Origin: Pseudomonas marvdashtae
GTDB taxonomy: Bacteria > Pseudomonadota > Gammaproteobacteria > Pseudomonadales > Pseudomonadaceae
Length of the DNA stretch: 64,000 bases
Direction of reading: 5' to 3'
Assembly (NCBI RefSeq): GCF_014268655.2
Contig: NZ_JABWQX020000006.1
Coordinates: 28,511 to 92,510, forward strand
Within the stretch, counting starts at the first letter, position 1, and each line of letters opens with the position of its first letter. Positions 2,976-46,662 of this stretch are shown here, in pieces. The translations under genes and the position numbers were made by a program. The notes below the pieces were generated by a model. It worked only from the letters and a program-made list of their open reading frames with translations, was not told the origin of the DNA and ran no database searches.

Positions 2976-5900
2976 ATGTCTGACGCACTCTGGGCCGCCC
3001 GACTGGGCGATGCGTTGAACCACACCTCGATGATGGCCGACATCCTCGGCGGCGTGCTGGAAGTGGCGGCGAACATTGCAATCACGGCCGTGGCGACGGC
3101 TGCCGTAGTGGCGGCCACGGGTATTACCGTGGTCACCGGCGGGCTGGGTTGCTTCGTCCTCGGCTTGGTGGTGGGCACGATTGTCGGCCTGGCCATGAGC
3201 AAGACCGGGGCCGACAAGGGCCTGAGTAATATATGCGAGGGCATCGGCAACGCCCTCTTTCCGCCCACGGTGCAGGCCAACATTCTTACCGGCTCCACCG
3301 ACACCCTCACCAACAACATCCCCGCCGCTCGCGCCGCCGGAGCGATTGAGTCCCACGTTGCCCCCGCCGGTACGGAGCTGGAGGCCCCCGAGCCTGAAGA
3401 AGAACCCAGCTACCTGGACATGGCCGGGAATTTTTTCTCGCAGATGTGGCGCCCCACCGTTGCCTCGCCCGCCCCTGGCGCCGTGCCCAAGCCGGAAGAC
3501 TTGGTCATCTGCATGAAGCACCCGCCGATGCCACCGCAGTTCATGGCCGAAGGCTCGGACAAAGTCACCATCAACAGCCAGCCCGCCGTGCGCAGCGGTG
3601 ACCGCAGCACCTGCGATGCGACGGTGGTGTCGTCCGGGCTGATTTCCCCTGACGTGACCATTGGCGGTGGTTCGGTGGTGGTGCGCGAGATTCGCAGCGG
3701 CAAGACGCCGGGCGTCGGCCTGGCGGTCACCGCGCTGCTGATGCTCAAGGGCGGCAAAGGCAAGTTCTTCAGCAAGCTGCCGTGCATGTTGGTGGGCGGC
3801 GCGGTGTCCATGGCCGCCAGCAGCGCGGCGAACGCGGCCGCCAATGCGGCCATGGGTTCGTCGAACCCGGTGCACGCCGCCACCGGCGCCAAAGTGCTGG
3901 GCGGTGACGAGGAGCTGGATTTCGTCTTGCCCGGCATCCTGCCCATCGATTGGCAGCGCGTGTACAACAGCCGCGACGAACGCCGCGACAGTTTGTTCGG
4001 CGCCGGCTGGAGCGTCGCCTACGAAGTCCAAGTGGAAATCCTGCCCCACCCCGAGGGCGGCGAAACCCTGATCTATACCGACGAACAGGGCAGGCCCATC
4101 GACATGGGCTCCATCCCCTTGGGCGGCGCGGTGTTTAGCGCCGGCGAAGGCCTGGCCGTGCGCCGTCATGTGAACGGGCAACTGTTGATCGAGAGCGAAG
4201 ACGGCCTTTACCGTTTGTTCGAACCTTCGCCAGCCAACCCATCACATTTGCGGCTGAGCCAACTGGGCGACCGCAACGACAACCGCATCCACCTCGACTA
4301 CGACGACGCCGGACGCCTGGTGCGACTGCGCGACACCTTCGACCTGGTGCAGGTCGAGCTGATCCGCGAAGGCGAACGCGTCGCCCACATCGAGCGCCTC
4401 TACCCCGACCAATCCCGCGAAGTGCTGGTCAGCTACGCCTACGACGCGGCGAACACCCTCGCCGAAGTGAGCGACGCCACCGGCCAGGTGCAACGGCGCT
4501 TCAGCTACGACGCCGGGCAACGAATGGTCGAGCACCAGTTGCCCACCGGCCTGCATTGCTTTTACGAATGGGCCTTGATCGACGACCAGGAATGGCGCGT
4601 GGTCCGGCACTGGACCGACGAAGGCGACGCCTACCAGTTCGACTATGACCTCAAGGCTGGCATCACCCGCATCAGCGACAGCCTGCAACGGGTCAGCATT
4701 CGGTACTGGAACAGCCAGCACCAGATCACCCAGTACAGCGACAACCTCGGCCAGACCTGGTTGTTCGAATGGAACGATGAGCGCCAGTTGCTCAGCGCCA
4801 CCGATCCACAGGGCGGCCAGTATCAATTCAGCTACGACGACGCCGGCAACCTGATCAGCGAAACCGACCCGTTGGGCCGCAGCGAATCCACCCTCTGGCT
4901 CGAACACTGGGCCCTGCCGCTGGTGGACACCGACGCCGCCGGCCAAAGCTGGAAGTACCGCTACGATCAACGCGGCAACTGCACGGCGCAAACCAACCCG
5001 CTGGGCCACATCACCCGCTACCGCTACGACGCCCACGGCCAGGTCGTGGAAATCATCGACGCCACCGGCAAAAGCAAGAAGCTACGCTGGAACCCGTTCG
5101 GCCAATTGGTGGAACACGTGGACTGCTCGGGTTATCCGACGCGTTTCAGTTATGACCAGCGGGGTTATTTACAGGTCATTACCGATCCGCTTGGCGAACG
5201 GATAACCTTCACCTACGACACCATGGGCAGAATCCTCAGCCGCCAGTTGCCCGATGGTCGTATCGAGCATTTTCAGCGCAATCTCTGCGGGCAACTGACG
5301 GCGCATACCAATCCGTCTGGCCATACCACCCATTATCAGTACAGCCCTCGCGGCCGAATTCACCAGCGAACGGATGCCCACGGTCGCAACGTGCAGTTCA
5401 GCTATGACCACTACGCACGACTGCAATCGCTGACCAACGAGAACGGCGAGCGTTATCGGTTTGCCTGGGATGCTAATGATCGTCTGGTCGAGCAGACGGA
5501 TCTTGATGGGAGCGCCCATCGTTATGACTACGATGTACTCAACAGCATTACCCGCGTCACCTCGCTGCCTGCGCAATATGGTGACGGGCTCGGTGTCGTC
5601 CCGCAAACACCGCAAGCACCCATTATTCATTGTCTGGAGCGTGACGCCGTGGGGCGTCTGGTTGCCAAGATTACAGATGATGGCCGCACCGAATACACCT
5701 ACGATCCGCTGGACCGACTCATCGCAATTACGTTCAGGGATACCCAGGGCCACGAACAGAAGCTGGCTTACCTCTATGACGCCGTGGGCCAGCCACTCGA
5801 AGAGCAAAGCTCAGCCGGCAGCTTGAAACATCGCTACGACGAACTCGGCAATCTCATCCAGACCCAACTGGCTGATGGCCGCTGGATCAACCGCCTGTAT

Positions 5901-7454
5901 TACGGCAGCGGCCACCTGCACCAGATCAACCTCGACGGCCAGGTCGTCTGCGACTTCGAGCGTGATCGGTTGCATCGTGAGGTCCTTCGCACCCAGGGTC
6001 AGATCAATACCAGGACTGAATATGATCGTGGAGGGCGCTTGCGTTCACGCGTTCGACGTTCAAACAGCCAGCCACGGTCATTGCCTGGAACGGGGCAAAC
6101 ACATTTCGAATTCGACCCTGGCGACAACCTGATAAGCCGCCTCGAACAAAAAAAAGGTGCTACGTCTCGACAACTGTTTCACTACGACGCCACCGATCGA
6201 ATCATTGCCAGCCAAAACATCGCTCAAGGGCAGCATGAAGCTTTTGCCTATGATGCGGCAGCCAACCTGTTGGACGGCCCGCAACCCAGTGCCGGCCTGG
6301 TCGTGCATAACAAATTATTGACCTACCGAGACAAACGTTATCGGTATGACGGCTTCGGTCGACTGATCGAAAAACGCAGTGCTAGCCGAGGGGTTCAACG
6401 ATTCAAGTACGACGCTGAAAGCAGAGTGATCGAAGTACGAAACCAGCATGCCGCCCGCGAAACCATCGTCACGATGAGCTATGACCCGTTAGGTCGTCGC
6501 ATTGAAAAAACCGAGCGAGACAGCCATGGCTATCCATTAGGCACCACTCGCTTTGTCTGGGACGGTTTGCAACTGGTCCAGGAACACCGCAATAGCCAGA
6601 CCAGCCTGTACCTCTACGAAGATGAAAGCTATGAGCCGCTGGCACGCGTAGATGGCATTGGGGCCCTGCAAAAGGTCAGGTACTACCACAACGACCCCAA
6701 CGGGTTGCCGCAAGAATTGACCGAACAGGACGGGCGCCGCGTCTGGCAGGCCAGCTATTACGTTTGGGGTAATACCGCCGAAGAAATTCGCGAGCCTTAC
6801 TACATCGAAGAACAGAACCTGAGGTTCCTGGGACAATACCTGGACCGGGAAACCGGGTTGCACTACAACACGTTCAGATTTTACGACCCTGACATCGGTC
6901 GGTTTATTACGCCGGACCCCATAGGACTCGCTGGGGGCCTGAATCTCTATCAGTATGGCCCTAACCCAATGGGCTGGAGTGACGCATGGGGGCTGGCGGG
7001 CAGTCCGACCACAGCGACCCACATCACCTACTTGGGCGTCGATAAGGCGACAGGAAAACCCTACGTAGGCTATGCCAGCATGCAAGGCAAGCAGGTAGGT
7101 TCAGACGTGCTGAACTATCGCTATGGATCAAACTTTGACCGCTTTGGTGGCCAGGCACCTCAAGTCCTGCATACCGCCTACGGACAGGACGGCAAGGACA
7201 CTACCCGAGGACTCGAGCAACGCGTTTATGAAGGCTTGGGTGGAAAAGACGGCACCGCCAACGCGCAGAACCCAGTCGGCAAAGGCAATGCCCGAAGGGA
7301 CAAATACCTGGCGGCGGCGGATAAACATCTGTCCAAGACACCGGCAGGCAAGGCGCTGGATAAACGTATCAAAGCGGCAAATAAAGCCATAGCCAAAGCC
7401 GCCGCCAAAGGGGCCAGCAAAGGTCGAGGAGCACGGGCAGGCCGGTGCTCGTGA
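2976..7454 (+). CDS. PAAR-domain Rhs effector with polymorphic C-terminal toxin, possibly GIY-YIG-like
   Basis: 1492 residues. The N-terminus has a soluble start, then hydrophobic Gly/Ala/Val helices at about 30-75 (the Eag target). PAAR segments follow: TGSTDTLTNNIPAARAAG near 105, then PEDLVICMKHPPMPPQF to about 245. A second hydrophobic Ala-rich stretch precedes the cage of YD/RHS repeats (YDDAGNLISETDPLGRSES and many others). The core ends at the PDPIGLAGGLNLY motif near residue 1313, the usual self-cleavage site. The last ~155 residues form the variable toxin: TYLGVDKATGKPYVGY, then RGLEQRVYEGLGG and NAQNPVGKGN. The order of Y-x-G hairpin, Glu helix and Asn recalls GIY-YIG nucleases, but this is a weak match. 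A Lys/Ala-rich tail follows. The gene directly downstream is the likely immunity gene. Confidence 0.92.
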   Translation: MSDALWAARLGDALNHTSMMADILGGVLEVAANIAITAVATAAVVAATGITVVTGGLGCFVLGLVVGTIVGLAMSKTGADKGLSNICEGIGNALFPPTVQANILTGSTDTLTNNIPAARAAGAIESHVAPAGTELEAPEPEEEPSYLDMAGNFFSQMWRPTVASPAPGAVPKPEDLVICMKHPPMPPQFMAEGSDKVTINSQPAVRSGDRSTCDATVVSSGLISPDVTIGGGSVVVREIRSGKTPGVGLAVTALLMLKGGKGKFFSKLPCMLVGGAVSMAASSAANAAANAAMGSSNPVHAATGAKVLGGDEELDFVLPGILPIDWQRVYNSRDERRDSLFGAGWSVAYEVQVEILPHPEGGETLIYTDEQGRPIDMGSIPLGGAVFSAGEGLAVRRHVNGQLLIESEDGLYRLFEPSPANPSHLRLSQLGDRNDNRIHLDYDDAGRLVRLRDTFDLVQVELIREGERVAHIERLYPDQSREVLVSYAYDAANTLAEVSDATGQVQRRFSYDAGQRMVEHQLPTGLHCFYEWALIDDQEWRVVRHWTDEGDAYQFDYDLKAGITRISDSLQRVSIRYWNSQHQITQYSDNLGQTWLFEWNDERQLLSATDPQGGQYQFSYDDAGNLISETDPLGRSESTLWLEHWALPLVDTDAAGQSWKYRYDQRGNCTAQTNPLGHITRYRYDAHGQVVEIIDATGKSKKLRWNPFGQLVEHVDCSGYPTRFSYDQRGYLQVITDPLGERITFTYDTMGRILSRQLPDGRIEHFQRNLCGQLTAHTNPSGHTTHYQYSPRGRIHQRTDAHGRNVQFSYDHYARLQSLTNENGERYRFAWDANDRLVEQTDLDGSAHRYDYDVLNSITRVTSLPAQYGDGLGVVPQTPQAPIIHCLERDAVGRLVAKITDDGRTEYTYDPLDRLIAITFRDTQGHEQKLAYLYDAVGQPLEEQSSAGSLKHRYDELGNLIQTQLADGRWINRLYYGSGHLHQINLDGQVVCDFERDRLHREVLRTQGQINTRTEYDRGGRLRSRVRRSNSQPRSLPGTGQTHFEFDPGDNLISRLEQKKGATSRQLFHYDATDRIIASQNIAQGQHEAFAYDAAANLLDGPQPSAGLVVHNKLLTYRDKRYRYDGFGRLIEKRSASRGVQRFKYDAESRVIEVRNQHAARETIVTMSYDPLGRRIEKTERDSHGYPLGTTRFVWDGLQLVQEHRNSQTSLYLYEDESYEPLARVDGIGALQKVRYYHNDPNGLPQELTEQDGRRVWQASYYVWGNTAEEIREPYYIEEQNLRFLGQYLDRETGLHYNTFRFYDPDIGRFITPDPIGLAGGLNLYQYGPNPMGWSDAWGLAGSPTTATHITYLGVDKATGKPYVGYASMQGKQVGSDVLNYRYGSNFDRFGGQAPQVLHTAYGQDGKDTTRGLEQRVYEGLGGKDGTANAQNPVGKGNARRDKYLAAADKHLSKTPAGKALDKRIKAANKAIAKAAAKGASKGRGARAGRCS

Positions 7455-9004: not shown

Positions 9005-9317
9005 ACCAAGCTACGCATCCTTGCGCCATTGCCTACAACTACGCCAGAATCCGCTGGCTTGTGCGCCTTGCCCCCGGGGCCTATCGTCTTCCTGCCACTG
9101 CCCACCAGTGGTCGGGTTTAGTAGCCCGAGGTTTTCCGCAAGATGCACGAGCTATCCACTCAGGCAGGTGTTCCAATTCCTGTCCTTGATGGTGGCTGTG
9201 CGCAGGGCGCTTCGGCGCGCCGGCAATGCTGGAATCCCCGGTCTACTAACCTGCGTACAGCCGCCACCCTTCTTTTAGTAGGGAAAGGGTCGCGGCCCAA
9301 CTCAAGGATTCCAGCTT
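9005..9317 (+). promoter_or_regulatory. Conserved structured leader of DUF6124 gene, copy 1
   Basis: This non-coding block is strongly similar to 41261-41566, also directly before a DUF6124 gene. In order it holds a CACTG/CAGTG hairpin (9096-9110), a TCGGG/CCCGA hairpin with loop TTTAGTAG (9112-9129), and a long stem of GGTGGCTGTGCGCAGG (9191-9206) with 9250-9268. CTACTAA at 9243-9249 lies just inside that stem. A last hairpin, ACCCTT/AAGGGT, again has TTTAGTAG in its loop (9266-9290). GCTGGAATCC at 9228-9237 is exactly complementary to 9306-9315, the ribosome-binding region. The second copy keeps all pairings with different bases. I read it as a cis-acting RNA; its function and ligand are unknown. 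Confidence 0.7.
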
Positions 9318-9674
9318 ATGTTCAAAATAACTCCAAACCCTCCGGAAACGGACAACTCCGCGCAAACCAAATCCAAAGCCAAAAAGCACGACGAAACCAC
9401 CAAACGCGTCTTGGATCACTACCTGCTACCCAAACCGGAAAAGTCCGAAGATGCATCCAAACCGGACCCGCTCTTCACCGTGTCAAAAAAAGCCGACAAC
9501 GAATGCCTGCTCGCCAACCTCAGCGAAAACCTGGCATCCGCCGACGCGATGATCAGCAACCTGGCCTTCGACCTGGAAGGCCCCCGCCGCCACATTGCCC
9601 TCGGCATTCAGCAACTGATCGAACTGAGTTCAATGCTGGCCAGCCGTGTGCTGGATAACGTCGACCCACGCTAA
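9318..9674 (+). CDS. DUF6124 family protein (formerly DUF3077)
   Basis: The 118-residue soluble protein starts MFKITPNPPETD and contains the family core TKRVLDHYLL, then ECLLANLSENLASADAMISN and IQQLIELSSMLA. These are small, probably helical proteins common and multi-copy in Pseudomonas, with no established function. The start is fixed by the shared MxKITPNPPE start in the paralogue at 41567 and by the conserved leader ending at the same distance. The gene ends 11 bases before the convergent HAD phosphatase gene. Translation may be controlled by the leader, because its ribosome-binding region is in a perfect 10-bp pairing. Confidence 0.85.
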   Translation: MFKITPNPPETDNSAQTKSKAKKHDETTKRVLDHYLLPKPEKSEDASKPDPLFTVSKKADNECLLANLSENLASADAMISNLAFDLEGPRRHIALGIQQLIELSSMLASRVLDNVDPR

Positions 9675-41260: not shown

Positions 41261-41566
41261 ATCAAGCTACGCATCCTTGCGCCTTTGCCTACAACTACGC
41301 CAGAATCCGCCCGCTTGTGCGCCTTGTTCCTGGGTTCTATTGTCGTCCTGCCACTGCTCATCAGTGGTCGGGTTTAGTAGCCCGAGGTAATCGAAGTTGT
41401 ACAAGCGCGTCTCAAACAGGGCCCTACCCTGTTTCTGATGGTGGCTGTACGCAGGGCGCTTAGGCGCGCCGGCTTCTTCGGTTCCCCGGTCTACTAACCT
41501 GCGTACAGCTGCCACCCCATTGTTTAGTAGCTTCGGGGTGTCGGCACCACATCGGAACCGAAGCTT
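41261..41566 (+). promoter_or_regulatory. Conserved structured leader of DUF6124 gene, copy 2
   Basis: Second copy of the element at 9005. Hairpin CACTG/CAGTG (41352-41366); TCGGG/CCCGA with loop TTTAGTAG (41368-41385); long stem GGTGGCTGTACGCAGG (41440-41455) with 41498-41516; CTACTAA at 41491-41497; final hairpin CACCCC/GGGGTG with TTTAGTAG (41513-41540). CTTCGGTTCC (41476-41485) pairs exactly with GGAACCGAAG (41554-41563), just before the ATG. The bases differ from copy 1 but the pairing is kept. The part 41036-41260 between the RTX gene and this element shows nothing recognisable. Confidence 0.7.
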
Positions 41567-41929
41567 ATGTACAAAATAACGCCGAATCCGCCAGAAGCAG
41601 ATTCCACTTCTACATCCGCAAAATCCAAAGCCAAGCAGCAAGACGAAACCACCAAACGCGTGCTCGATCACTACTTGCGGCCGAAACCGGATAAATCCAA
41701 AGACGACCCCAAACCGGGGCAGCTGTATGCCGTCGTGAAAGGCCTCGATAACGAATGCCTGCTCGCCAACCTCAGTGAGACGCTGGCTTCGGCTGATGCC
41801 ATGGTGAGTGACCTGGCGTTTGATCTGGAGGGATCGAGGCGCCATGTGGCGCAGGGGATTCAGCAGTTGATTGAGCTGAGTTCGTTGTTGGCGAATCGGG
41901 TGTTGGATAATGTGGAGCCGCGGCAGTAG
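41567..41929 (+). CDS. DUF6124 family protein, second copy
   Basis: The 120-residue paralogue of the protein at 9318 starts MYKITPNPPEAD, with TKRVLDHYLRPKPDKSKDD, NECLLANLSETLASADAMVS and IQQLIELSSLLANRVLDNVE. Divergence is greatest in the Ser/Lys-rich linker. The conserved leader sits directly upstream, so leader and gene move or evolve as a unit. A strong terminator-like hairpin follows 16 bases after the stop. Function unknown. Confidence 0.85.
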   Translation: MYKITPNPPEADSTSTSAKSKAKQQDETTKRVLDHYLRPKPDKSKDDPKPGQLYAVVKGLDNECLLANLSETLASADAMVSDLAFDLEGSRRHVAQGIQQLIELSSLLANRVLDNVEPRQ

Positions 41930-42413: not shown

Positions 42414-43529
42414 ATGCTACGTAAATTCTCCGTGAAAAACTACCGAAACTTCTCAGATTGGCTATGTTTCGATCTAACTAGCCAGCAATACGAATTTAAT
42501 GAAAACGCGGTCAGTGAAGGTGTAGTAAGACACGCTATGATTTATGGCCCTAACGGCGGCGGTAAATCTAACCTTGGTCTTGCAATGGTTGATCCGGCTT
42601 TACATTTAATTGACTCTCCTAGCTATTTCCCCTCGCTAGACAACAACTATCTTAACGGCAGTCCTGATGTACACATCGCAGAATTTATCTTTGAGTTTTG
42701 CATTGACGGCGTACAGATAGTATATAGTTACGGGAAGAAAACCTGGAGCCAACTAGTTTACGAGCGCCTCATAATAGATACAAATGATATCCTTCATATA
42801 GATCGCCGAAAATCAACCCTGGCCAATATCGAGCTGGAGGGCGCGGAACATCTAAAGAAAGATGTGGGCGACTCGGAGATATCGCTACTTAAATATGTTA
42901 AAAGCAATGCGATATTAGACGAAACAGCCGTAAATAATACCTTTTCAAAGCTATTAGACTTTATCGAAGGGATGGTTTTCTTTCGCTCGTTAAATGCAAC
43001 CAAAAAAGGCGAATATGTAGGAAAGGATATTGGTGTAAAGAGACTTTCGCAGAGCATAATTGAAAGCGGCTCTGTAGAAGACTTTGAAAAACTCCTAAAC
43101 GACGCTGGCGTAGAGTGCTCGCTTGTCGTCGCCGACAGTAACTATAGCAATGACAAAGCTATTTATTTCGATTTCGGCGGGGTAAAACTGGAGTTTGGCT
43201 CGGTAGCATCCACAGGAACATTATCTCTTGGAATTTTCTATTTTTGGTGGCTCCGACTGATGGAGGGAACGGTAACATTCGCATATATAGACGAGTTTGA
43301 CGCGTTTTATCACCACGCTTTAGCTTCAACCATTGTTGAAAAAATCACTACATCGCAAGCTCAAACCATTATGACCACACACAATACTGGCGTAATGAGC
43401 AATGACCTCCTGCGGCCCGACTGTTATTTTGTGTTAGATAAAACAATTTTGCCAATAACAGAACTAACGGACAAAGCTCTGCGAAAAGCTCATAATTTAG
43501 AGAAGATTTATAAAGGATTATCTAGTTAA
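42414..43529 (+). CDS. AAA ATPase of putative two-gene defence module (RloA/AbiLi-like)
   Basis: 371 residues. It begins LRKFSVKNYRNFSDW, the start of SMC/RecF-like AAA_15 and AAA_21 proteins. Walker A is GPNGGGKSNLG near 45-55. A signature-like stretch FGSVASTGTLSLGIF lies near 263, Walker B AYIDEFDAFYHH near 290, and the switch His in IMTTHNTGVMSND near 322. The ribosome-binding site is AAAGGGG. The next gene starts on its stop codon (TAATG) and encodes a TOPRIM/RloB-like protein, the pairing seen in AbiL and related phage-defence systems. Codon use is A+T-rich, unlike the flanking core genes, suggesting horizontal transfer. Confidence 0.8.
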   Translation: MLRKFSVKNYRNFSDWLCFDLTSQQYEFNENAVSEGVVRHAMIYGPNGGGKSNLGLAMVDPALHLIDSPSYFPSLDNNYLNGSPDVHIAEFIFEFCIDGVQIVYSYGKKTWSQLVYERLIIDTNDILHIDRRKSTLANIELEGAEHLKKDVGDSEISLLKYVKSNAILDETAVNNTFSKLLDFIEGMVFFRSLNATKKGEYVGKDIGVKRLSQSIIESGSVEDFEKLLNDAGVECSLVVADSNYSNDKAIYFDFGGVKLEFGSVASTGTLSLGIFYFWWLRLMEGTVTFAYIDEFDAFYHHALASTIVEKITTSQAQTIMTTHNTGVMSNDLLRPDCYFVLDKTILPITELTDKALRKAHNLEKIYKGLSS

Positions 43530-44269
43530 TGGAGCGAACCTTATTTATATTTGAAGGCGAAAAAACTGAACGACTTTACTTTAAAAGCCTAGAGCGTGCT
43601 TTTTTCCCCGGCGAAGAAAGCAGACTCTTGGCTAGTTTTCAAAACGATCTCTACGAGCTCTACGCGCAAGTTGCGGAAGACGAAGACTTAGATCTTTTTG
43701 AGCTTATCAAAGAACTAAATCCAAGCGCTAACAAAGATGAGCACTTAAAAAATCTAAGACGAGATCAAGTCGGCCAAATTTACCTATTCTTTGATTTCGA
43801 GCCGAAAGACGACCAATTCACCGGAAAAAACTTACTCAATATGATACGCCGCTTCGATAACGAGACGGAACTTGGAAAGCTATTCATAAGCTATCCGATG
43901 ATTGAGGCCATTAGAGATATTGATAACCTTGATGAGTTTCTATGCAGAACAGTAGCCATATCTGACTGCGCAGGCGCTATTTATAAAAAATTGTCTGCCG
44001 ACAGGGGAAGCCACTTATATCAAGACGCAAAAAAAATAGATAAAAAAGGATGGCAATTTTTGATTGAGGCGAATCTTCGAAAGGCCAATATGCTAACTAG
44101 CGGCGAAGATGCTTTAGCACTTATTAGCGACCAAGCACCACTTGCCTTGGCGCAATTAATTAACGACTCGCCTCGCGACCCGCTTCCAGTACTCAGTGCT
44201 TTCCCAATCTTTCTTGCCGATTATTTTGGATTGGACGTTTTAAGCAGCGCTCAGCGATTCGTAAAGTAA
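43529..44269 (+). CDS. RloB/TOPRIM-like partner of the AAA ATPase
   Basis: 246 residues, translationally coupled to the ATPase. The N-terminus TLFIFEGEKTERLYFKSLE matches the RloB/AbiLii pattern EGEKTE-x-x-YF, whose Glu is the first TOPRIM acidic residue. The second acidic cluster is IYLFFDFEPKDDQF near residue 90. NETELGKLFISYPMIEAI near 118 is a further block shared by such partners. TOPRIM proteins in OLD-like defence systems cut DNA or RNA when the ATPase senses infection. The family call is from motifs; the target is unknown. Confidence 0.65.
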   Translation: MERTLFIFEGEKTERLYFKSLERAFFPGEESRLLASFQNDLYELYAQVAEDEDLDLFELIKELNPSANKDEHLKNLRRDQVGQIYLFFDFEPKDDQFTGKNLLNMIRRFDNETELGKLFISYPMIEAIRDIDNLDEFLCRTVAISDCAGAIYKKLSADRGSHLYQDAKKIDKKGWQFLIEANLRKANMLTSGEDALALISDQAPLALAQLINDSPRDPLPVLSAFPIFLADYFGLDVLSSAQRFVK

Positions 44270-44285
44270 ACCATATAGAACAGAA

Positions 44286-44328
44286 AAAAGGGAGCAGATT
44301 ACTTCTAGCATATTAATCTGTCCCTTTT
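44286..44328. terminator. Hairpin between convergent defence genes
   Basis: AAAAGGGAGCAGATTA / TTAATCTGTCCCTTTT forms a long imperfect hairpin with A- and T-runs on both sides, fit for termination on both strands. It belongs to the same sequence family as 30454-30493. Confidence 0.65.
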
Positions 44329-44380
44329 AACACATTAAATTCCTGCGGCCCGCCCTAGGCAACATATTTCAACCGTTAAG

Positions 44381-46537
44381 CTATTTGCTCATTGCGTCGT
44401 AGTGTTCAGAATATCCGCACTCTTCAAAAATCAGTCTAAGACCGTCTTTGAAAACCTGATGATCGAACTCCTTTATATCAAAAATATTCTGACCCAAGGA
44501 ATGCGACTCTCGATTCATGTACCTGTAGAAAGTAGTAAATTTATCAGTCGACAGCGCTGGCTTCTGGAAAACATTATTGAAATCTTTCTTTTGAACAAAA
44601 TTGAAGAAATATTCGATAATGTTCCGCATACAGTTTGCGATAAGCGCAGGTGGTGAAGCCTGGTCTTTTATGATCGACCAGTACGACTGGTAGTCATTCT
44701 GAATCTCCTCGTACTTCATCGGAATTACAGAGCTTCCGTTTGTATTTTTAAAGACTCTGAACAAATTCTGGGTATCTCCGCGCGTTTTATGATTCGTGTG
44801 AGTCAACTCATAGAAAAAATACAAACTATGAGTCAGCACAAAGACCTGCTTATAGAGATCATCGTTTATTAAGTACTTCTTGATCAGCTGTCCAATATTG
44901 AATACATAGAGATGAGAAAGACTAGAAATAGGATCATCAATCACAACCACCTTGGCTTGAGGGACGGCAGAGGCGGTTTTCTGTCCCTTACAAAGTTCCA
45001 TGAAGTATAGAAAGCTGATAACGGTTTTCTCACCTTCGCTCAGCGAGTGAAAGGCATTTTCTTGTTCGGTAGCTCTGGACACTCGGTAGAAGTTCTCACC
45101 ATACGGAACCACAGAAAAGCCATCGATGCCAATCTCTACCAGTCCGGCATTAATATTCTCAATTGACTCTTCAATGTTCACTGTCTGTTTTCTAAGGTTA
45201 GCGATCTTACCCTTCGATGCTGCGACATCTGCGTCAACCTTAGTGGCTTCCTGGCTTATTTTGCTGATCTCGTCTTTTAGTTCAGATGCTGACTGCGAAT
45301 AGGCAGAAATCGTCTGGTCATAATCCCAGCGCATCAGCGTCCAGAAACGAGATTTTATTCCATCTTTTGTTTTTGTCTTATTCGCCAGCTTATCATTGTG
45401 CGCGCCAATCTTATCGTTCAGATTATTGAGCAAATTATTGATCAGATTAACGGTGAGACTTGTATCGGTAAGGGTAGTCGGCGTGCTCGGGCTTTTGATT
45501 TTGTTACCAATATGTAGAATGTTTTCGCGTATCGATGCTTTCAAAGCTTCGCAGGCAATTGTCCAGGCTTCTACGAGCTCCTTATTAGCAAGCGGAGAGT
45601 TTGCGATATCTTGAATATTCAGTCTGGAGGTCAGCGCCTCATACTGAGCTTTTATCAGCTCTAATTGCTCAATATCTTGTTCGTAGGCCTCGTCGAAGAC
45701 ACGGCGTATCGAATCGATGATAGTTTTCGTGACTGTTTCTTGCTGGCAAAATGGGCAGGTTTGAGGATCTTCCTCATCTGAAATGAACTGAAGCCCTTGT
45801 TTCACCCAGTCAGAATTTCCGGCCTTCGCAATGAACTCAGCAACCGACCCCTCTTGGCTGCCAACGATGACCTTCGACCATAGTGAATCTCCCTCAATAC
45901 TCAGCCAGCCAGCAGATATAATGGGGATGGTTGTGAACGGAGCTGCACCTTCTCCCTCGATTGATGAGGCCTCCGCTTTCAAATCATCAACCGTATAGCC
46001 AGGCGCACTATCTGGCAAGGGAAGCCCGATAATATGCTGAAAAAGGAGTTCTGTTCTTTTCAAGCTTTCTAGGCAGAACTCCAGAACGCGATCACCGCCC
46101 GAGAAATTTGTTTTTATCTCCCAAACTTTACCACTTGCTTTTATCTTTTCCTGTTCCAGCTTACTGACTGCTTCGGTAGCTAACTTTAAATTATCTTGTT
46201 GAGTGATTAGGTGCTTCTCCAGTTCTTTCGTGTCAGCTTCGATTTGCTGCAGCGCAACCTTGTTTTCTTTCGAAAGGGTAAAAATTCCTTTTAGATTGTC
46301 TTCTTCGTAAAAATAGTCATTAAGAAAGCTTTGATTGTAAACAAGGATTTCACATTCTTGGCTCGTTTTTATACTGCATTTAGCAAACTTTGGTGCGCCT
46401 TGATTGTACAAAAACTCGGAAATAGTGCTCTTCCCTGCCCCGTTCAGCCCATAGATTAACGACGTCTTATTGGTAGGTGAAAAAGTGGATTGGGATTTGT
46501 AACTGGTAACCCCATCTATATTCAGTTCCTTGATCAT
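44381..46537 (-). CDS. RloC/PrrC-like AAA_13 ATPase with zinc hook, putative anticodon nuclease
   Basis: 718 residues from ATG 46537, which has TTAGGAGT upstream; the longer frame to 46642 has no good start. Walker A GLNGAGKSTISEF near 34-46, coiled coils, then a CPFC zinc-hook-like motif (PQTCPFCQQETVTKT) near 260. A second coiled coil precedes the signature HSLSEGEKTVISF near 490, Walker B KVVVIDDPISSLSH near 525, and the switch His in VLTHSLYFF near 560. The C-terminal ~120 residues hold MRNIIEYFFNF and, about 35 residues on, YRYMNRESHS. This is the Arg-x3-Glu plus His order of PrrC/RloC anticodon nucleases and also a HEPN-type Arg-x6-His. The gene is A+T-rich like the facing pair. Confidence 0.75.
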   Translation of the reverse strand: MIKELNIDGVTSYKSQSTFSPTNKTSLIYGLNGAGKSTISEFLYNQGAPKFAKCSIKTSQECEILVYNQSFLNDYFYEEDNLKGIFTLSKENKVALQQIEADTKELEKHLITQQDNLKLATEAVSKLEQEKIKASGKVWEIKTNFSGGDRVLEFCLESLKRTELLFQHIIGLPLPDSAPGYTVDDLKAEASSIEGEGAAPFTTIPIISAGWLSIEGDSLWSKVIVGSQEGSVAEFIAKAGNSDWVKQGLQFISDEEDPQTCPFCQQETVTKTIIDSIRRVFDEAYEQDIEQLELIKAQYEALTSRLNIQDIANSPLANKELVEAWTIACEALKASIRENILHIGNKIKSPSTPTTLTDTSLTVNLINNLLNNLNDKIGAHNDKLANKTKTKDGIKSRFWTLMRWDYDQTISAYSQSASELKDEISKISQEATKVDADVAASKGKIANLRKQTVNIEESIENINAGLVEIGIDGFSVVPYGENFYRVSRATEQENAFHSLSEGEKTVISFLYFMELCKGQKTASAVPQAKVVVIDDPISSLSHLYVFNIGQLIKKYLINDDLYKQVFVLTHSLYFFYELTHTNHKTRGDTQNLFRVFKNTNGSSVIPMKYEEIQNDYQSYWSIIKDQASPPALIANCMRNIIEYFFNFVQKKDFNNVFQKPALSTDKFTTFYRYMNRESHSLGQNIFDIKEFDHQVFKDGLRLIFEECGYSEHYDAMSK

Positions 46538-46662
46538 GACGAGACTCCTAAGGGCTAAGTGGCTTTGCGCCATCTCTGTTGGCCAAAAGCAGCATAGGCG
46601 AGCCGGGAGATGCCTGCCACCCGGCCACGACAAATAGGCCAATTAGCGCATTAGGGACCGCA

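Follow-up and report, generated by a model that had tools for sequence, protein, structure and literature searches.

The window analyzed here, a 64,000-nucleotide stretch of the Pseudomonas marvdashtae contig NZ_JABWQX020000006.1, carries two genes for small proteins of the DUF6124 family, each preceded by a set of RNA elements. A scan of the window against Rfam at the gathering cut-offs (45 bits for C4, RF01695; 46.7 bits for c4-a1b1, RF03163), a search that the first-pass annotation of this DNA had suggested, returned four matches, two to C4 and two to c4-a1b1, all on the forward strand, and no other family. The C4 model was covered whole (P1, P2, and P3; positions 1 to 87 of 87), and an RF03163 a1b1 element lies upstream at both copies. 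Following the naming used for phage P1, we call the site directly after C4 a2 and the site at the ribosome-binding site b2; both are complementary to segments within C4, a' and b', respectively. The two units are laid out as follows.

Copy 1:
9059..9087, + strand: predicted sigma-70-type promoter (TTGTGC at 9059-9064, 17-nt spacer, TATCGT at 9082-9087)
9081..9132, + strand: c4-a1b1 element (RF03163), 48.8 bits, cut-off 46.7
9118-9124, + strand: a1, TTAGTAG, in the loop of a CGGG/CCCG hairpin at 9113-9128
9185..9271, + strand: C4 antisense RNA (RF01695), 68.7 bits, cut-off 45
9191-9268, + strand: predicted mature C4, GGTGGC...GCCACC, by analogy with phage P1
9224..9237, + strand: P3 loop (b'), stem GCCGG 9219-9223 / CCGGT 9238-9242; the last 10 nt are the 5' arm of the first-pass annotation
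9243..9249, + strand: a', CTACTAA, single-stranded junction 3' of P3, complementary to 9118-9124 and 9275-9281
9275..9281, + strand: a2 target, TTAGTAG, immediately 3' of C4, complementary to a'
9306..9315, + strand: b2 target, GGATTCCAGC, overlapping the Shine-Dalgarno sequence, complementary to 9228-9237; the 3' arm of the first-pass annotation
9318..9674, + strand: DUF6124 gene, 118 aa (PF19619, 98.2 bits, cut-off 27)

Copy 2:
41315..41343, + strand: predicted promoter, TTGTGC-17-TATTGT, from sequence
41337..41388, + strand: c4-a1b1 element, 52.0 bits, cut-off 46.7
41374-41380, + strand: a1, TTAGTAG, in a hairpin at 41369-41384
41434..41519, + strand: C4 antisense RNA, 69.9 bits, cut-off 45
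41440-41516, + strand: predicted mature C4
41473-41485, + strand: P3 loop (b')
41491-41497, + strand: a', CTACTAA
41524..41530, + strand: a2 target, TTAGTAG
41554..41563, + strand: b2 target, GGAACCGAAG, at the ribosome-binding site, exact complement of 41476-41485
41567..41929, + strand: DUF6124 gene, 120 aa (PF19619, 97.0 bits, cut-off 27)

The first-pass annotation had described a 10-bp pairing at the ribosome-binding sites of both genes, which it correctly named as DUF6124, and the pairing is exact: 9228-9237 (GCTGGAATCC) is the reverse complement of 9306-9315 in copy 1, and 41476-41485 (CTTCGGTTCC) that of 41554-41563 in copy 2. Between the two copies, five of the 10 positions are changed on each side, with every change compensated. 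The 3' arm of copy 1 overlaps the GGA of the Shine-Dalgarno sequence AAGGA (9304-9308) and stops 2 bases 5' of the ATG, and that of copy 2 stops 3 bases 5' of its start codon. By a rough expectation, chance alone would match a 14-nt loop to a 40-nt leader over an exact 10-mer in ∼1.5e-4 of units. Computed duplex energies (RNAduplex) for the copy 1 loop were -18.3 kcal/mol with its own site versus -10.8 kcal/mol with the site of copy 2; for the copy 2 loop, they were -16.6 kcal/mol versus -5.4 kcal/mol with the site of copy 1. Since a' is common to both window units, separation of their codes would rest on b' alone.

Both C4 sequences are predicted to fold stably, with a minimum free energy of -48.7 kcal/mol for copy 1 (z -5.70; 0 of 200 shuffles as low) and -44.4 kcal/mol for copy 2 (z -4.91 against shuffled sequence); in the minimum-energy fold of copy 1, two pairs fall within the P3 loop. 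The start of the C4 of phage P1 is matched only by a GGT at 9191 and 41440. Two features had been overlooked in the first-pass annotation of copy 1, namely, the second contact, between 9243-9249 and 9275-9281, and the upstream a1b1 element at 9081-9132. A b1 complement to the P3 loop is unconvincing in copy 1, where the longest run is 4, or 6 when G-U pairs are counted.

We then examined both contacts in a large set of units. A nucleotide profile built from 20 C4s of the window's own genome gave 355 matches in that genome, the genus, and GTDB loci. Once 13 incomplete matches had been dropped, the others represented 283 distinct places; in 274 of these, taken as units, C4 is followed by an open reading frame (ORF) of ≥50 aa (the nine places lacking such an ORF were dropped). 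Units were keyed by place, and no two places in one genome carry an identical 90-nt C4. The P3 loop was compared, as a contiguous Watson-Crick run, with the 40-nt stretch leading up to the unit's own start codon, and crossed controls were combinations of units whose loops share <5 nt. Runs of ≥6, ≥7, ≥8, and ≥9 between loop and own ribosome-binding site were present in 221, 187, 144, and 93 of the 274 units, versus 2,865, 562, 96, and 18 of 53,388 crossed combinations. The first-pass annotation was right that this pairing is under selection. In the 53 units with runs of <6, some loops pair through G-U pairs or with mismatches. The junction matched the site after C4 with a run of ≥6 in 271/274 units, compared to 2,205/46,386 crossed combinations. 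In an earlier set of 177 distinct units, used for allele counts and position only, 143 had a loop run of ≥6, and 142 of these 143 overlapped positions -14 to -5. The loop contact also recurs in other genera of the order, where a run of ≥7 was found in 20 of 27 units versus 11/702 crossed (for five of the 27, in which our rule located no start codon, the leader window was widened).

The a':a2 contact was further assessed for covariation in 37 aligned sequences, including phage P1. All 259 of 259 cells were paired, double-change cells numbered 65 compared to 19.4 in shuffles (0/500 as high), and the covariation score was 0.660 against 0.246 in shuffles (0/500 as high) and 0.196 for the best slid register. 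Two of five measures did not exceed the shuffles: double-change pairs (5 versus 4.0; 83/500 as high) and further pair types (8 versus 9.9; 500/500 as high). Upstream of C4, the 5-nt core of a' had an exact complement in 270/272 units, and in the earlier set such a complement lay within 160 nt in 97% of own compared to 11% of crossed cases. The upstream b1 complement of the P3 loop is weaker, with runs of ≥6 in 155/270 units versus 2,137/51,680 crossed. The promoter motif is not uniform: TTGTGC-17-TATCGT was the top-scoring site in 58/272 units and TTGTGC-17-TATTGT in 30/272, while a different site scored highest in 184/272.

These units are numerous. The window's genome contains 31 matches to C4, 34 to DUF6124, and 31 to c4-a1b1 (14 above the cut-off). 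C4 was detected in 110 of 119 genus genomes, the window's own included, and DUF6124 in 95 of 119; with up to 33 candidates scored per genome, C4 counts of 33 mean at least 33, and four genus genomes rescored with a higher limit had 36, 42, 47, and 41. At the order level, C4 occurred in 20 of 145 genomes including the window's own, the other 19 having one to six matches. C4 lies upstream of 28/36 DUF6124 ORF entries in the window's genome (one gene is counted twice), 20/30 in the genus set, 83/85 in the GTDB loci, and 79/86 in viral contigs. DUF6124 was absent from the plasmid collection searched and occurred in one phage record only, at the record's edge. Seven loci of the window's genome (L032, L041, L044, L046, L053, L055, and L059) have DUF6124 genes with no C4 upstream, and these look like units that lost C4; L046 and L053 retain a c4-a1b1 element above the cut-off. 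None of the other C4s in the genome clearly matches both contacts at these genes.

Other Pseudomonas genes also lie behind C4, among them Bro-N (PF02498), DUF3077 (PF11275), and small families with no Pfam match; three proteins behind C4s of the window's genome likewise had no Pfam match. The C4s before Bro-N genes (L073, L074, L075, L077, L071, L078, and L081) have a single common P3 loop. A family of 52 to 68 aa with an AALHANSSL...RYN motif follows C4 in Pseudomonas and other genera (L064, L066, L076, L083, L284, L288, L291, and L301), and the two members scanned had no Pfam match. Several neighborhoods were recorded in passing. Beside copy 2, window positions 42414-46642 hold candidate anti-phage genes by PADLOC profiles, a PDC-M12A/PDC-M12B pair (42414-44269) and PDC-S06 (44381-46642). 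Just upstream of copy 1, an RHS-like ORF of 1,492 aa followed by two small ORFs (2976-7454) resembles, on visual inspection, a polymorphic-toxin locus. In the single viral contig inspected out of 80 (L203:4953-5360), a C4-DUF6124 unit sits in a cargo position within a contractile-tail cluster, flanked by tail-fibre-like and tail-sheath-like genes (named by eye). Seven matches to TwoAYGGAY RNA (RF01731) above the cut-off lie near the C4 or DUF6124 loci L037, L041, L032, L053, L016, and L014.

Within a genome, each unit tends to carry a recognition code of its own. The 177 distinct units have 107 distinct P3-loop alleles. Requiring a P3-loop run of ≥7 together with a junction run of ≥6, we found that 21/29 cognate combinations passed in the window's own genome versus 1/812 heterologous combinations. 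Corresponding values, with several of the genomes covered only in part, were 28/38 versus 3/1,406 in G019, 17/25 versus 2/600 in G010, 16/24 versus 1/552 in G062, 14/19 versus 1/342 in G039, 8/11 versus 0/110 in G035, and 7/10 versus 0/90 in G112. Both segments were equal in one of 2,138 same-genome unit pairs versus 352 of 35,263 between-genome pairs, pairs that are not independent of one another. Among pairs with DUF6124 ORFs ≥90% identical, both segments were equal in 1/23 within and 48/102 between genomes (Fisher P = 8.1e-5), and at ≥80% identity in 1/87 and 133/762, respectively (P = 3.7e-6). The clearest case is the tandem pair at L022 in the window's own genome, whose ORFs are 98.6% identical and whose P3 loops are wholly different. 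In each of three genomes, a pair of units (L349/L352, L191/L199, and L325/L329) has an equal P3 loop and unlike junctions (CGACT versus CTGCT), so that the second contact alone would separate its members.

The DUF6124 protein itself gave few leads. It matched no Pfam family of known function, no PHROG below an E value of 0.001 (best, 0.19), and, for either window protein, no PADLOC profile; a sequence search of the PDB with the family profile returned one hit (E value, 0.74). An AlphaFold model (mean pLDDT, 79.6; pTM, 0.52) predicts a helical hairpin at the C terminus (helices 61-85 and 89-113, pLDDT mostly >90) and a less certain N-terminal helix. Fold searches returned 280 matches from the PDB and 573 viral ones when E values up to 10 were allowed; none reached E ≤ 0.001, and the best were short helical hairpins.

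Given that the order of parts and the pairing match the immI region of phage P1, C4-type antisense repression of DUF6124 is the likely mechanism, and we put the probability that each window site is a C4-type antisense unit silencing its own gene at about 0.88. A single transcript would start at the predicted promoter 5' of a1b1, cross C4, and continue into DUF6124. By analogy with P1, where RNase P is responsible, C4 would be excised from this transcript and act in trans; its P3 loop (b') would pair with b2, masking the ribosome-binding site, while the a' junction would pair with a2 immediately 3' of C4. DUF6124 translation would then be off as long as the unit's own C4 is present, and, the b'/a' codes being unit-specific, silencing by the C4 of a sister unit is not expected. 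The first-pass annotation had likewise proposed translational control of DUF6124 by its leader, naming a switch, an RNA thermometer, or a trans partner; control is still the best reading, with the trans partner the member of that list that fits. That the arm and the ribosome-binding site instead form a switch or thermometer by pairing within one uncut mRNA is permitted by their complementarity and by their distance of 68 nt on a single predicted transcript. We nevertheless consider this very improbable: the 5' arm belongs to a folded C4 RNA (RF01695, 9185-9271), lying inside its P3 loop, so that the pairing is one antisense RNA-target contact rather than a leader helix, and phage P1 has both contacts with a C4 that PMC5320573 describes as a trans-acting, RNase P-processed antisense RNA. 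A thermometer or ligand riboswitch was rejected on the same position of the arm and because no described family of either kind reached its cut-off in the window. A type I toxin-antitoxin system, with C4 as RNA antitoxin to a DUF6124 toxin, would account for a small protein with a private antisense RNA in many copies per genome, and the gene that follows C4 in P1, icd, carries the annotation of a cell division inhibitor. We find this reading unlikely, as DUF6124 is a charged protein of 118 to 120 aa (16 K+R, 18 D+E) lacking a membrane segment by hydropathy (19-aa maxima, 1.08 and 0.80), neither window protein matches PADLOC or a Pfam toxin family, and several DUF6124 genes that seem to have lost C4 stay open. 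DUF6124 is not the small hydrophobic membrane toxin that defines the type I class, and we kept the comparison as an analogy.

Selection against cross-silencing probably keeps same-genome codes apart, though the pattern is no proof. That the distinctness is neutral, as would follow if the paralogues predate the orthologues and gene conversion homogenizes the ORFs alone, has in our estimate a little under an even chance. Shuffling of genome labels gave 20.1 equal-code same-genome pairs (standard deviation, 4.6; minimum, 7) versus one observed (0/2,000 as low), but this is not a neutral model, because orthologues by definition lie in different genomes. The dependence among unit pairs also favors neutrality, as does the choice of GTDB loci, the 80 best among 555 matches to the family found in the window, a selection that enriches between-genome comparisons in close relatives; moreover, some same-genome pairs with ORFs ≥95% alike have C4 scaffolds down to 71 to 75% identity. 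Matching pairs on the C4 scaffold, with loop and junction left out, argues in the other direction: both segments were shared by 0/9 same-genome versus 246/499 between-genome pairs at ≥95% scaffold identity (P = 0.0038) and by 0/98 versus 312/2,381 at ≥90% (P = 2.6e-6). We advance only tentatively, at somewhat short of even odds, the broader proposal that in Pseudomonas a P1-type C4 immunity switch has become a chromosomal family of up to ∼47 units per cell with private two-part codes, that selection against cross-silencing diverges these codes faster than the genes, and that DUF6124 proteins are insulated, self-silenced effectors.

Should that proposal hold, production of DUF6124 would be confined to two situations: arrival of a unit in a cell lacking the cognate C4, and a shortfall of that C4. 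Because each C4 has its target sequence right beside it, the units amount to a natural library in which antisense RNAs come paired with their targets, making it testable how few bases suffice to separate antisense pairs in one cell and what role is played by DUF6124, a family maintained as tens of copies that are each silenced individually. They would also provide ready-made, mutually independent translation switches. C4 itself is already known; what is unusual is dozens of C4 switches per chromosome, each with its own recognition code. In the PubMed Central literature searched, we found neither a C4-DUF6124 linkage, nor large sets of mutually distinct C4 units in Pseudomonas, nor any paper naming "DUF6124."

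C4 has been known since 1990 as the immunity RNA of phages P1 and P7. The P1 record AF234172 is annotated in the order promoters, a1, b1, C4, a2, b2, icd, with a2 and b2 marked as the sites where C4 represses icd/ant translation; its Rfam scores (68.8 bits for C4, 51.0 bits for c4-a1b1) are comparable to those of the window, and its P3 loop and junction form 8- and 7-nt runs with the downstream sites. The window units thus resemble the immI region of P1 and P7 (a1 b1 - C4 - a2 b2 - icd - ant) in RNA family, order, two contacts per target, b2 at the ribosome-binding site, and an upstream a1 hairpin. Unlike the phage systems, they are chromosomal, with 31 in one genome and many codes per cell, and their target is DUF6124 rather than icd/ant or another antirepressor, so that we did not class them as P1-type antirepressor immunity; the Pseudomonas C4-Bro-N units come nearer to that arrangement. 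The c4 and c4-a1b1 motifs that Weinberg et al. (2010) listed for Proteobacteria and phages are the Rfam models matched here, and the passages of that paper on these motifs make no mention of DUF6124, copy number, or specificity (PMC2864571). In the portion of PMC5320573 that deals with these RNAs, the C4s of P1 and P7 differ in a few recognition bases and do not cross-react, and the Group 1 small RNAs of Acinetobacter baumannii are described as many C4-like RNAs per chromosome (21 similar sequences, 15 full length), with a variable target-recognition loop and processing at a GGW site; their targets are given there as not known, and no linked target gene is described. The Pseudomonas units share with Group 1 the multiplicity within a chromosome and the variable recognition loop. 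In contrast to Group 1, an ORF is linked in cis to every Pseudomonas unit kept in our set, and in most of these units the ribosome-binding site of that ORF bears matching sites.
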